NCBI GenBank assembly: GCA_017443165.1
Contig: JAFSOW010000231.1
Coordinates: 1-25,739, forward strand
Length of the DNA: 25,739 nt
Direction: 5' to 3'
From: Acidaminococcaceae bacterium
GTDB taxonomy: Bacteria > Bacillota > Negativicutes > Acidaminococcales > Acidaminococcaceae
The notes under the pieces are model-generated. The model ran no database searches and had not been told where the DNA came from. It worked only from the letters and a program-made list of their open reading frames with translations. How positions within the stretch are numbered: position 1 is the stretch's first letter; each line of letters opens with the position of its first letter. Shown in pieces: positions 7,963 through 12,653 of this stretch. A program made the translations under genes and the position numbers.

Positions 7963-8724
7963 TTACGCCGTGATTGTAATCACGCAATCGTAGGTTGCGC
8001 CGCCGGACAGTACCACGGTAAAGGTAGTGGCGCCATTGGTCAGCGTGGTCAGATATGAGCCCAGGAGAATGACCTGCTGACCGCCCAGCGCGATGCTGTA
8101 ATCGGTAGCCGTCATATCCACGCCGCCCTTCTGCACCTTGGAGATGGTACCCGCCGGAACGGTCAGCACCACATCTGCCTCGGTCGCCTTGGAATAGGTC
8201 AGAGGCGGTAAAGTATGGCTGACATCCGGTACTACGAACCCGGTTTTCTTTTCCGGAGCGCCGGAACCGGTAGCCGTCAAAGACTTTGTGATCATGTCTT
8301 CACTTTCAGCAGTGATTTCCCAGGAAGTGGGAGCAATTTTTAAATCATACCATTCAAGGCTATCCAGATCCACGATAGCAACGTTCAGCAGATTCTTTTC
8401 TGCTGTAATTTCATCGTCGAGCAAGAACTCTTCGATGGCCGCCTGGGCTTCATTATCACGCAGCATAATGACTTCGGCAGACACTTCAAAAGACTTGCTG
8501 GTAATAGCCGTAATAGGCCAGAAACCGCTATCCTTAGTCTGCTGGCTATTCGCTTCCGCAGACAAAGACAGAGCATTGCTGGTGCAACCACCCAGCAGCG
8601 CCCAAACCGGATTCTGTGCAGTTGCACCGCTGCCATAGTTGACAAATATCACCAGCCGTTTACCGGAAATCCCGGCCCCTGCCGCAAAAGCAGGGTACTT
8701 TTCCTTAGCAATGGTTATGCTCAT
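7963..8724 (-). CDS. Major tail protein with C-terminal X2 Ig-like domain
   Basis: A 253-residue tube protein. The ATG at 8724 is used because the GTG at 8733 belongs to its ribosome binding site (GAGAGGTG). Residues 1-152 form the tube domain (WALLGGCTSNALSLSAEAN, KSFEVSAEVIMLRD, SWEITAESEDMITKSLTATGSG). After a short linker, residues about 177-253 form an X2-type Ig-like domain with DYSIALGGQQVILLGSYLTTL and NGATTFTVVLSGG, related to the three in the capsid extension. Unlike those it is fused in frame, so every tail ring would display it. Confidence 0.85.
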   Translation of the reverse strand: MSITIAKEKYPAFAAGAGISGKRLVIFVNYGSGATAQNPVWALLGGCTSNALSLSAEANSQQTKDSGFWPITAITSKSFEVSAEVIMLRDNEAQAAIEEFLLDDEITAEKNLLNVAIVDLDSLEWYDLKIAPTSWEITAESEDMITKSLTATGSGAPEKKTGFVVPDVSHTLPPLTYSKATEADVVLTVPAGTISKVQKGGVDMTATDYSIALGGQQVILLGSYLTTLTNGATTFTVVLSGGATYDCVITITA

Positions 8725-8737
8725 TTTTTTCACCTCT

Positions 8738-9202: not shown

Positions 9203-9567
9203 ATGATACCCCCGCTCCCATTGATAGCTGTGGCCGTCAGCTGGATATAATACGGAGCGCTTTCATCTATCAGCGTTATTTCATTTATCAGATAGGTATA
9301 GCCGTTATACGCCAGCCGCCAGTTTGTGTTCAGGGGAGTCTTGAGCAGACTTCTTATGTCCCTGATCACAAAGAAGCGGGTGTCACTGGTAACATAATCA
9401 CCAATAAACTGCTGGCGCGTCTGGCTTTTCTGCTCACACATAGCGAACAGTGTCAGCGCTGCCGTGTATGTTGTGGGCTTCAACCCGCCCAGGTCATCAC
9501 GCTCCGGAGCAGAAGGACTCAGCAACGTTATCTTTTTTGTAAACCTGCCAGGATTACGTCTAAACAT
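9199..9567 (-). CDS. Head closure / head-tail joining protein
   Basis: A 122-residue protein of the SPP1 gp16 / phage head-tail joining type: N-terminal MFRRNPGRFTKKITLLSPS, then DDLGG, a strand with LFAMCEQKSQTRQQFIGDYVT (in pieces), a segment TRFFVIRDIR, then YNGYTYLINEI and a final strand with YYIQLTATAI. It plugs the connector after packaging and accepts the tail. The ribosome binding site is AGGGGG. It overlaps the tail terminator start as ATGA. Confidence 0.8.
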   Translation of the reverse strand: MFRRNPGRFTKKITLLSPSAPERDDLGGLKPTTYTAALTLFAMCEQKSQTRQQFIGDYVTSDTRFFVIRDIRSLLKTPLNTNWRLAYNGYTYLINEITLIDESAPYYIQLTATAINGSGGII

Positions 9568-9931
9568 TATTTACCCCCTGCAATCCGCCTTTTAAAATCC
9601 CGCGCCAATAATTCTGCGTATCCACGTCAATCTCACCAATTTTGTTACGCTTAACGCGATGTGCAGTCAATTTCTTATATGTCGGCGCTTTTTTACCATA
9701 TGCGCCCCGGTAAGTTGGTAGCGCACAGTTGATGATGAACAGATCTTCCAGCCGTTCCTGTCGCCTGACATACCCGTCAAACATGGCATCTATCTCCATG
9801 ATGGTGTAGCTGCCAAACTGTTCCGGCGTCAGACCTAATTCACCAAGGGCAATAGGCTCAAGCTCTTCAATCAGAGCCGATACAGTTTTAAACGTTTTGC
9901 CAGGGCTTACGCCATTATGGCCGCCCCCGCT
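9560..9931 (-). CDS. Tail assembly chaperone, -1 frame extension (T-like part of GT)
   Basis: This frame is open from the slippery site to 9560 (123 residues) but has no credible start of its own until an ATG at 9799, which lacks a good ribosome binding site. The part before that ATG reads LIEELEPIALGELGLTPEQFGSYT in two pieces, the typical LGLTPEEFxxxT motif of chaperone C-terminal domains, so it is clearly coding. Fused to 110 residues of the short form it gives a protein of about 233 residues. The end is basic (KKLTAHRVKRNKIGE), fitting tape-measure or tube binding. It overlaps the head closure gene by 8 bp. Confidence 0.75.
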   Translation of the reverse strand, partial: SGGGHNGVSPGKTFKTVSALIEELEPIALGELGLTPEQFGSYTIMEIDAMFDGYVRRQERLEDLFIINCALPTYRGAYGKKAPTYKKLTAHRVKRNKIGEIDVDTQNYWRGILKGGLQGVNNV

Positions 9932-10260
9932 TTTTTTGGATCACCCAGAACGCCGCTAAGCACTAACGCTTTCATGCCGGCTTTAAACACGTCTACCACA
10001 GGCATCTCCTCAACCGCAGCCAAATAAAGCGCTTCCGCTTCATCTTCTTTCAGTTCGGGATTCCCGCCCATTAACGCATACTTAATGATGATATACATAT
10101 CGTATACATTTGGCGGGATACCCGCGGATGCGCGTTCCAGCATAAGCATGATGTTGCCATCAGTCAGCTGGCGTTCTGCTACAAATACCTGTTTGACGGG
10201 ATAGCACAGTTTGTGTTTCTTGCCGCCAAACTCAATTTCTACGAATTTATCAAATACCAT
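9907..10260 (-). CDS. Tail assembly chaperone, short form (G-like)
   Basis: A 117-residue protein resembling GTA gp10/TAC-type chaperones: strands around EIEFGGKKHKLCYPVKQ, then a helix VFVAERQLTDGNIMLMLERA, a segment YDMYIIIKYALMGG, and PELKEDEAEALYLAA. These proteins coat the tape measure before tube assembly. Near the end the codons CCA AAA AAA GCG contain A AAA AAA in phase, and the -1 frame is open for 123 further codons, giving the G/GT pair found in most long-tailed phages. Its location, before head closure and far from the tape measure gene, is unusual. Confidence 0.7.
   Translation of the reverse strand: MVFDKFVEIEFGGKKHKLCYPVKQVFVAERQLTDGNIMLMLERASAGIPPNVYDMYIIIKYALMGGNPELKEDEAEALYLAAVEEMPVVDVFKAGMKALVLSGVLGDPKKAGAAIMA
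9931..9937 (-). promoter_or_regulatory. Programmed -1 frameshift heptamer in the tail chaperone gene
   Basis: The minus strand reads CCA AAA AAA GCG in the chaperone frame, giving the slippery heptamer A AAA AAA. It is followed directly by a G/C-rich segment that can form short GGGC/GCCC and GCC/GGC stems. The -1 frame continues without a stop into the ORF at 9560. Confidence 0.75.
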
Positions 10261-10668: not shown

Positions 10669-11448
10669 TTAATCACCTACCGTGACAACATAGGTAAGTT
10701 CATCCTCGCCGTCATCCAGCTGTACCTTGAATGTCTTATCGCCATTGGCCAGGCCACCCAGGTATTCATCATCAATGGTGATGCTGTGTGCGCCTTCCGC
10801 GATGGTGTAGTTATCGGGGTTCACGTTGGTACCGCCAATCTTCAGACCGGTAATTTCAGCATCCGCCACCGCAATAGTGATATCTGCCGGATCCGCCTTG
10901 CTGAAGCTGGCGCTACCGTTTCCGCTGACTTCAATAACCAGTTCGTCATACGCAGTCGTGCCCTCCAGTACCTTAAAGGTCTTGTCGCCGTTGGACAAAG
11001 TAGCCAAATATTCCTTTTTGATGGTGATCGTGTGGTTACTGTTGCTGATAGCATAGGCGCTGGCATCAACTGCTGCGTCCTGATACTTCAGGCCGGTAAT
11101 TTCCACATCAGATACAGACATTGCCACATCATCAGGATCTGAACGGTCAAATTCATCCTCATGTACACCGCTGATTACGACATCCCACAATACTGTGGTC
11201 GGCGTGGTTTCACTGTCATCCAGGATGATAGCAAACTCTTTGGTACCATTGGACAATGTTGCCAGGTAATCTTTATCAATGGTGATAGAGCACTCATCAT
11301 CAGAAATATCATAATAATCGGTGCTCACGCTGGCATCGTTAAGTTTCAGCCCATCAATAGCATGACCGATCCCGACGGTAACGTCGGCAGCATCCTCACG
11401 GCTGAAATCGGAGCTGCCGTCCGGTACCTGTTCATCGGTCGGGATCAC
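10669..11448 (-). CDS. Triple Ig-like (CBM_X2) capsid extension, made by -1 frameshift
   Basis: A 259-residue ORF overlapping the capsid stop as GTGA and lying in the -1 frame relative to it. It has three tandem beta domains at residues 15-93, 100-174 and 182-257. Each starts FxRxDPxDV, continues with ITGLK, a Tyr-x-Ile strand and ITIxxxYLATLSNGxKTF, and ends with a final strand. This is the CBM_X2/Ig-like module. The only start is a GTG with no ribosome binding site, so the likeliest product is a 661-residue capsid fusion (400 capsid residues, then 261 from this frame). Displayed on the head, such domains are thought to bind carbohydrate or mucus. Independent expression as a decoration protein remains possible. 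Confidence 0.8.
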   Translation of the reverse strand: MIPTDEQVPDGSSDFSREDAADVTVGIGHAIDGLKLNDASVSTDYYDISDDECSITIDKDYLATLSNGTKEFAIILDDSETTPTTVLWDVVISGVHEDEFDRSDPDDVAMSVSDVEITGLKYQDAAVDASAYAISNSNHTITIKKEYLATLSNGDKTFKVLEGTTAYDELVIEVSGNGSASFSKADPADITIAVADAEITGLKIGGTNVNPDNYTIAEGAHSITIDDEYLGGLANGDKTFKVQLDDGEDELTYVVTVGD

Positions 11449-11460
11449 GCCGATTTTTTT
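11368..11460 (-). promoter_or_regulatory. Programmed -1 frameshift signal at the end of the capsid gene
   Basis: The heptamer A AAA AAA (11460 to 11454) is in phase with the capsid codons AAA AAA. After a 7-nt spacer, GATCCCGAC (11446 to 11438) can pair with its exact complement GTCGGGATC (11376 to 11368). The 61-nt loop holds a second stem CGGCAGC/GCTGCCG. The -1 frame is open and runs straight into the Ig-like ORF. Slippery site, spacer and structure are all where a frameshift signal should be. Actual use is not shown. Confidence 0.7.
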
Positions 11461-12653
11461 AAGTATGCAAATGCCTTTGTGGTCAGGGGCTGACCGTCAA
11501 CCAGGGCATAGCCCATGTAGTCGGTGGTACGCGCCAGGACATGGTCTTCCTGGTACATGGTGATGTCTTCGTTTACGTTGAAGGCGTAACCGTCAGCCAT
11601 ATTGGCCAGCAATACAGCATGATCCGGGATTGCGTCTTCTTCTTCCACGATGATACCGAAGATACGGCCTACGCCGCCCTGGGTTGCGTCCGGAATGAAG
11701 ATCGGGCGATTGTCAGCGTCAAGGATGTTGGCCAAACGGTTCCAAATGCAGGCTGCATTCGCATAGAATTTAGCCTTGCCGGTATAACCGGATTTAATCT
11801 TGGCCATCAAGCCGGTCAGGTCGCCATATTTGATGCCGTTAGCGGCAGTATAGGTGCTGACCTGCGGAGTGTCAGATTCTGCTTCCAGTTTTGTGATAAC
11901 GCCCAGCGGTTCCGGTTTGTCGGTAGTACCATTACCAACGCCGTCACCGGTAACCAGGCCAGCTGCCAGGGCATTGGCCATCTTGTCAGCAATACGGCTG
12001 GCAACATATGCCAGGAATTCGTCCACAGCCATCTTTTTCAGCTTCCAGGAAACCTGGATGGCTTTGGCCAACTCGCACCCCTTCAGGGTGATCTTGGTGT
12101 TGGTAACTTTTTCTGCAGTCACGGCGTCTTCGTCATACCATGCAGCAGCATTGCCAACGGAAGTTTCCATCAGGATGTCAACGTCGCCATGGATGTTGGT
12201 GCGAGCCAGGGCAGCAATAATCGGATGCAGTTCTTCCATTTCATGCCAGATACCCTGTTTCAGAGTAGCAGGCACCACAACATGGTTTTCTTTTACGGTA
12301 GAGGTCGCATTCCGTGCGCTGAAAATATTCTGTTCTTCTGCAGACATTTTCACGCCCATCATAAAATGAGCAAATGCGTTGGTGTACAGTTTTTCCTCTT
12401 CCGCTTTTTTGTCAGCCACCGGTGCAATCGGTGCCTGATTCAGCACAACCGGAACCGCCGGAGCTGCCGGAACCTGGGTTCCATTCAGGGCGGCAAAATT
12501 CGCCTGTGCCGTAGCCAGCGCCTGAAATTTTTCATCCAGCGCCAGCACCTCTTTGTTTACCGCATCCGCCTTTACAGCGTCCTCGGCTTCGATTGCTGCT
12601 TTCATTTCTGCCAGCAGCTGAGCGCGTTTTGCTTCGTACTCTTTTTTGTTCAT
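11445..12653 (-). CDS. Major capsid protein, HK97 fold
   Basis: A 402-residue capsid precursor. Residues 1-55 are a coiled-coil delta domain (KRAQLLAEMKAAIEAEDAV), followed by a Pro/Ala/Val-rich linker (60-85). The mature domain starts after about residue 105 and carries HK97-type segments (VPATLKQGIWHEMEELHPI, AWYDEDAVTAEKV, KFYANAACIWNRLANILDADNRPI). Cleavage by the adjacent protease probably falls between about 95 and 115. The ribosome binding site is AAAGGAG. The last codons are TTA AAA AAA TCG GCG TGA, a canonical -1 slippery heptamer 6 nt before the stop, so a fraction of subunits probably carry the Ig-like extension encoded downstream. Confidence 0.95.
   Translation of the reverse strand: MNKKEYEAKRAQLLAEMKAAIEAEDAVKADAVNKEVLALDEKFQALATAQANFAALNGTQVPAAPAVPVVLNQAPIAPVADKKAEEEKLYTNAFAHFMMGVKMSAEEQNIFSARNATSTVKENHVVVPATLKQGIWHEMEELHPIIAALARTNIHGDVDILMETSVGNAAAWYDEDAVTAEKVTNTKITLKGCELAKAIQVSWKLKKMAVDEFLAYVASRIADKMANALAAGLVTGDGVGNGTTDKPEPLGVITKLEAESDTPQVSTYTAANGIKYGDLTGLMAKIKSGYTGKAKFYANAACIWNRLANILDADNRPIFIPDATQGGVGRIFGIIVEEEDAIPDHAVLLANMADGYAFNVNEDITMYQEDHVLARTTDYMGYALVDGQPLTTKAFAYLKKSA

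Follow-up and report, generated by a model that had tools for sequence, protein, structure and literature searches.

In the 25,739 nt of DNA analysed here (the window), the gene for the major capsid protein of a gut phage is followed, in the -1 frame, by an open reading frame (ORF) that encodes Ig-like domains. This arrangement raises the question of whether the second frame is a gene of its own or is translated as an extension of the capsid protein. Programmed -1 ribosomal frameshifting, as put forward in a preliminary description of this DNA, is very probably the answer as judged from the sequences, and would yield a minority capsid form with three X2 Ig-like domains.

The capsid gene encodes an HK97-type protein (PF05065, E 4e-34; phrog_10, E 2.6e-48), and its neighbours match Pfam and PHROG profiles of portal, protease and terminase. 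The structural genes run on the minus strand in the order terminase, portal, ClpP-like protease, capsid, Ig ORF, connector and further genes. The source assembly is in fragments (1.49 Mb, 255 contigs, 73% complete). Its closest named genome relative (L030, with 74% capsid identity; L numbers denote loci) is in an Acidaminococcaceae genome from roe deer duodenum. The junction of the two frames has the following parts:

11445..12653, minus strand: major capsid protein gene (HK97 fold family), 402 aa, stop TGA at 11447-11445 (PF05065, phrog_10)
11454..11460, minus strand: slippery heptamer A_AAA_AAA, zero-frame codons AAA AAA (sequence; codons the same in 11 of 11 relatives compared)
10669..11460, minus strand: -1 frame extension from heptamer to stop, 263 codons including two Lys codons (open frame)
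11446..11448, minus strand: GTG overlapping the capsid stop (GTGA), with no Shine-Dalgarno core in the preceding 20 nt (sequence)

As the preliminary description had it, the capsid gene ends in TTA AAA AAA TCG GCG TGA, with A_AAA_AAA in phase at 11460-11454, and no stop interrupts the -1 frame between 49 nt before the capsid stop and 776 nt past it. A slip at this site would join 400 capsid residues to 261 others through the junction AYLKK-IGVIPTDE; recomputation returned these lengths, 661 aa in all. The computed precursor masses are 43.3 kDa for the plain protein and 70.8 kDa for the extended one. Removal of the N-terminal delta domain is usual for HK97-type capsid proteins, and if the domain is removed here, by a cut that would fall near residue 105, mature forms of about 32 and 60 kDa are expected. 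The band near 70 kDa foreseen earlier would thus fit the precursor but not the mature protein. The heptamer by itself is not rare, since A_AAA_AAN occurs in phase at 15 of 7906 positions in the 30 window genes.

The extension contains three stretches that match the CBM_X2 (Ig-like) family PF03442 (E 2.9e-18; 66.2 bits against a gathering score of 28.9):

11170..11412, minus strand: X2/Ig-like domain 1, limits approximate, from the model (PF03442, predicted structure)
10927..11157, minus strand: X2/Ig-like domain 2, limits approximate (PF03442, predicted structure)
10675..10914, minus strand: X2/Ig-like domain 3, limits approximate (PF03442, predicted structure)

A single-sequence AlphaFold model has three consecutive beta-sandwich segments (mean pLDDT 68.7, with 30-36 in the other four models), in agreement with the three domains described before. 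Foldseek matched the extension model, at TM-scores of at most 0.28, to a glucan-binding protein, a three-module GH5 glucanase and chains of Ig/cadherin domains, and the sole PDB match by sequence was an IgA protease, at the third domain (E 5.9e-6). Eight of the ten relatives scanned reach the PF03442 gathering score or more, and L090 (28.5) and L019 (28.2) fall just under it. The major tail protein of the window (7963-8733, minus strand) also has one CBM_X2 domain, at its C-terminus and in frame. Since the tail X2 is in frame and that of the capsid lies in the -1 frame, the phage may have two separate ways of presenting X2, one for the head and one for the tail.

In order to see whether heptamer and extension go together, capsid homologues were taken from IMG/VR, GTDB genomes, phage records and whole genomes. 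Identical 120-nt junctions were merged, which reduced 211 loci to 112 distinct junctions; those in which the capsid match ended more than 25 residues short of the query end, or with less than 200 nt past the stop, were dropped. Each junction was then scored for an in-phase A_AAA_AAN within the open -1 frame and for a -1 ORF that extends 150 nt or more beyond the stop. Both were present in 26 junctions, the heptamer only in one, the ORF only in eight and neither in 77 (Fisher p 2.2e-17, which is not strict because the rows share descent). The one heptamer without a long ORF, in L165, is followed by an ORF of 140 nt, just short of the 150 nt cut-off. Two of the junctions with an ORF and no A_AAA_AAN (L099 and L210) carry an ATG at the capsid stop, and their ORFs are probably separate genes. 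Twenty of the 26 double-positive junctions are X2-type, 11 assigned by Pfam scan and nine by likeness to those. The preliminary description had named the loss of the heptamer in homologs that keep both ORFs as evidence against frameshifting; all 20 retain an in-phase A_AAA_AAA. L014, whose capsid is 62% identical over residues 294-400, has neither heptamer nor Ig ORF. No Ig gene is annotated 3' of the capsid gene in the seven annotated records among the eight phage records examined (15 matched; L027 is unannotated).

The 40 codons that end at the slippery site were compared across 11 relatives, selected to represent the window's types a, b and c. The codons TAC TTA AAA AAA are invariant among them, whereas variation is seen in the Lys codon eight positions earlier and in the columns with Leu. 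Ten of the 40 columns have a single codon, and two of these are ATG. The heptamer, of the form X_XXY_YYZ, is thus both in phase and conserved in homologs, as is expected of a programmed -1 frameshift.

The other six double-positive junctions (L037, L043, L045, L188, L194 and L211) have a different extension. A second class of -1 extension on homologous capsids carries Rho_N/SAP-like domains (L043, L165, L178, L181, L187, L188, L194 and L204, with L045, L209 and L211 assigned by eye); several of the Rho_N matches are under the cut-off, and an EF-hand is weakly matched in L194, L187 and L043. Four members of this class (L178, L181, L187 and L204) have no classical heptamer and share GGG GAA in their last codons, so that G_GGG_GAA is perhaps an unusual slip site.

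A second frameshift is likely elsewhere in the window, as predicted from its sequence. Gene 9907-10260 (minus strand) matches tail-chaperone families (PF11836, 2.3e-5, under the cut-off; phrog_183, 4e-4) and has CCA AAA AAA GCG near its end, with an in-phase A_AAA_AAA at 9937-9931, from which the -1 frame runs for 125 codons to 9560, through ORF 9560-9799. All ten distinct tail-chaperone junctions, including that of the window, have A_AAA_AAA in phase, and in each the -1 ORF extends at least 296 nt beyond the stop. We take the region 9560-10260 to fit the known frameshift of tail assembly chaperones.

Because the GTG of the Ig ORF overlaps the capsid stop, coupled re-initiation must be considered. 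Here ribosomes would stop at the TGA, start again at the GTG and produce a free Ig protein of 259 aa. Overlapping stop/start pairs are common in phage operons, and the overlap is present in the window and its type a relatives. It is also restricted to them (window, L003, L005 and L007): a start at the overlap conserved in homologs, as re-initiation would call for, was not found, types b and c having no such GTG. Nine of the 19 X2 rows have no ATG, GTG or TTG before the domain. The first such codon in these lies at least 63 nt past the heptamer start, at 162-168 nt in five type b rows and at 63-84 nt in L034, L085, L090 and L214, and it falls inside the Pfam-placed domain in all six of the nine that were scanned. 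It had been noted earlier that the ORF has only a GTG start and no Shine-Dalgarno sequence, which we also find; clear cores are present at clpP, the capsid gene and 9907-10260, though several other window genes are without a clear one as well. Re-initiation gives no account of the conserved heptamer, and we consider it very improbable.

If frameshifting is programmed, a stimulatory RNA structure may be expected downstream of the slippery site. The 9-bp perfect inverted repeat reported earlier, GATCCCGAC (11446-11438) and GTCGGGATC (11376-11368), was found again. It begins 7 nt past the heptamer and encloses a nested hairpin, and it forms the outer stem P1 of the minimum free energy (MFE) fold:

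11438..11447, minus strand: P1 stem, 5' arm; ten pairs in the MFE fold, one of them U-G, nine perfect (MFE fold)
11429..11437, minus strand: 9-nt bulge on the 5' side; same length in seven other cassettes (MFE fold)
11377..11428, minus strand: P2, inner imperfect hairpin, continuous with P1 on the 3' strand (MFE fold)
11367..11376, minus strand: P1 stem, 3' arm, in codons for an early beta strand of X2 domain 1 (MFE fold, predicted structure)

The same plan of P1, 9-nt bulge and P2 is found in L034, L064, L085, L090, L129, L214 and L215, and with a bulge of 6 nt in L009, while the letters of P1 vary by cassette (CGACTGATAC, AGCAACAACA, ACCGTGA, CAGTCAGC, TAACCGTCAA and others). In L046 the choice between two folds is ambiguous. 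The pairing in type b is different though related; it is of longer range and starts 1 nt past the heptamer. We also considered whether the bulge pairs with sequence downstream of P1 in a pseudoknot, as inspection by eye shows complementary letters in the window, L064 and L085; they are absent in L090 and the candidate was dropped.

A perfect helix of at least 9 bp at this place occurs in 1-2% of synonymous-codon nulls for the window, and perfect-helix length is not significant in type b, L046, L064, L129 and L214. Since the nulls average about 5 bp, helix length is weak as a sole statistic, and therefore we used energy against synonymous nulls, covariation and inner-domain controls. By eye, T-V codons are able to pair with T-V codons.

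For the 90 nt past the heptamer in the window, the fold energy has z -3.55 with one synonymous null and -3.68 with a second (p 0.0025, the lowest value that 400 nulls allow). A dinucleotide shuffle over 141 nt gave a weaker result (z -2.03; 12 of 200 shuffles as low). For other cassettes, under codon permutation that preserves the amino acids (type b over 160 nt), z was -2.49 in L005, -2.95 in type b, -5.29 in type c, -4.06 and -3.02 in the two loci of the Dielma fastidiosa type strain (L034 and L046), -3.01 in L129, -3.59 in L090 and -2.10 in L215; the values for L064 (-1.42), L085 (-0.90) and, narrowly, L214 (-1.75) are not significant. Eight inner X2 domains have z between -0.93 and +1.46, that is, no excess structure, and the in-frame X2 of the tail protein has z -1.50 (p 0.076). 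The excess structure is thus tied to the place after the heptamer and not to X2 coding. Nor is such structure confined to the junction, since other stretches are structured as well: two just before the heptamer (z -3.3 and -2.3), another in the Ig ORF some 100 nt past the heptamer (z -2.4) and one inside the capsid gene. The last, 90 nt at about 12015-12104 on the minus strand, has z -5.0 against codon permutation.

Six cassettes could be aligned, and in these the share of cells that pair is 100% for P1 and 90.5% for P2. Both sides have changed in six pairs, a count that 4 of 500 shuffles matched, and the covariation score of 0.521 was reached by none of 500, slid structures scoring at most 0.183. 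Short spacing and covariation, the marks of a stimulatory structure, are thus found together in the six related cassettes, and for the window it is the energy against synonymous nulls that argues for one. The preliminary description had suggested a search for conservation of both heptamer and stem in homologs. The heptamer is present in all X2 rows and the stem covaries in the six cassettes; in the window's own type a, P1 has a single change, in L005, which is compensated, and 126 of 500 shuffles are as good, so that covariation there falls short of significance because four rows are too few and the family is too uniform.

In pairs of the four type a sequences, synonymous differences are scarcer early in the Ig ORF, with 15 of 168 over its first 30 codons compared with 396 of 1226 over the remaining codons. 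The Ig frame stays open, and its amino acids are better kept than its synonymous sites. This bears on the view that sees in the Ig ORF a remnant out of frame or an error of assembly, for which the fragmented and incomplete state of the source assembly might speak. Against it stand the constraint on the amino acids and the open frame, and the same layout recurs in numerous independent contigs, from collections both of viruses and of genomes. A remnant or an error is hardly conceivable.

The same fusion could also be made without any RNA stem, by an RNA polymerase that adds an A on the seven-A run. All X2 rows have a run of A at the site, and the product of such transcriptional slippage would be the same. 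Seven A is short for efficient slippage, and the run is not special, because the minus strand of the window has eleven of them. Slippage leaves the covarying stem and the downstream synonymous constraint without an explanation, and we regard it as improbable. Programmed frameshifting draws its support from the association of heptamer and ORF, the synonymous constraint, the covariation in six cassettes and the nine of 19 rows without a start. Within the limits of sequence comparison, phase, open frame, domain identity, conservation, six-cassette covariation and the exchange of extensions described below are established.

An RNA model built from the six cassettes was searched against 43 sources, the window and 42 loci, which are a subset of all loci. 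Five of these loci were new, from a screen in which six of 398 genomes of the phylum had a capsid match at E 1e-30, and were used only in this search. L034 (E 0.003) and L003, the window and L005 (E 0.39-0.57) were matched, each at its own heptamer; the window's score (E 0.44) is not significant. The match in L046 lies 15 nt downstream of the heptamer, and off-site matches of similar score occur in L031 and L129. Under stricter filters, with thresholds below which the window itself falls, 63 genomes of the order gave no new site (two matches, both model-building sequences). A match in one of the 398 phylum genomes, lying among metabolic genes, was rejected as chance. An Rfam search of window positions 11200-11600 in E-value mode gave no match at gathering score and two chance matches (E 7.8 and 8.7).

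Comparison of related junctions indicates that extensions are exchanged. L009 and L011 are 71% identical at the capsid end, 99% in the extension and 96% in the next 400 nt; the values are 70, 100 and 100% for L008 and L065, and 75, 93 and 75% for L004 and L019. Conversely, the window and L004 are 79% identical at the capsid end, 37% in the extension and 69% in the next 400 nt. The extension is thus swapped as a block, with its left edge at or near the slippery site and a variable right edge. The slip signal, that is the A run and the RNA fold in domain 1, seems to be traded between related phages along with the domain. We consider it plausible, with the balance slightly in favour, that this is a portable frameshift-and-display cassette, in which a stimulator RNA of definite plan lies inside the first X2 domain and whole extensions are exchanged at or near the slippery site. 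With one breakpoint there, dosage control would move together with the domain, and a capsid gene that gained the cassette at a terminal A_AAA_AAA would at once produce a minority of decorated subunits.

Under programmed frameshifting, ribosomes on the capsid mRNA would reach A_AAA_AAA at codons 399-400 and be paused by the downstream RNA (P1, the 9-nt bulge and the inner hairpin). A minority would slip back one base, bypass the stop two codons later and add the 261 residues with their three X2 domains. The shell would then consist of plain capsid protein and fewer copies that bear an Ig-like array on the surface, where the array would probably bind weakly to carbohydrate, mucus or fibre. The slippery site is retained through exchange of the extension and the pairing is retained with different letters, which suggests selection for partial decoration, in other words for a certain proportion of Ig-bearing to plain subunits in the capsid. 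The number of X2 domains on homologous capsids is zero, one, two or three, which makes them a natural series, and the structure is a candidate RNA element for dosage-controlled capsid display. Gene callers easily miss or mis-start such extensions.

Garcia 2004 and Rodriguez 2005 reportedly described a -1 frameshift extension of the major head protein of Lactobacillus phage A2. According to a review (PMC5009743), frameshifting gives C-terminal Ig-like domains to diverse phage proteins, with T3, A2 (-1) and Listeria phages named, so that such additions to phage structural proteins are indeed known, as the preliminary description had stated. The same review passes on the view that Ig-like extensions out of frame reflect chance insertion followed by selection (PMC5009743). 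The locus has two of the features of the A2/T3 kind, a capsid gene and an Ig-like domain in the shifted frame past the capsid stop, and resembles A2, whose capsid protein has an Ig-like C-terminal extension by -1 frameshift (PMC5009743). Capsids of the A2-like phage iA2 are 33% identical to the window's. The iA2-type Lactobacillus phages (L024 and others, e.g. L093-L111) have C_CCA_AAA before the capsid stop and a -1 addition of only 23 residues, perhaps a remnant or a minimal extension, whereas the window has A_AAA_AAA and three X2 domains.

The gene 10 proteins of T3/T7 and K1F belong to a different capsid family from the window's and are without an X2 array. They are alike in that T3/T7 gene 10 and K1F gene 10b yield a minor capsid form by -1 frameshifting at the gene end (PMC5009743 and PMC13370021), with an Ig-like extension in T3 as in the window (PMC5009743); the K1F site has been used to display Ig-like adhesins (PMC13370021). 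In Bacillus phage SPP1, frameshifting likewise puts an Ig-fold (FN3) domain on a fraction of a structural protein, gp17.1/gp17.1*, at 3:1 (PMC8718954). That protein is a tail tube and not a capsid protein, and the tail X2 of the window is in frame. The X2 modules of carbohydrate-active enzymes (PF03442) are of the same domain family as all extensions scanned; the window's X2 differs in sitting out of frame on a phage capsid, where binding would be its probable role.

Signals of the dnaX type have a downstream stem. They share the lysine-codon slippery site, which is A_AAA_AAG in dnaX, and A_AAA_AAA was less shift-prone in E. coli constructs (PMC5009743). The window differs by its A_AAA_AAA and in that its element is longer, has a 5' bulge of 9 nt and lies within the coding sequence of the extension. 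No paper among the matches listed in a literature search deals with X2 capsid extensions by frameshift or with covarying stimulators of Ig extensions. While -1 frameshift Ig-like capsid extensions are known from T3 and A2 (PMC5009743), the X2 array, the recurring stimulator within Ig coding sequence and the exchange of stimulators appear to be new.
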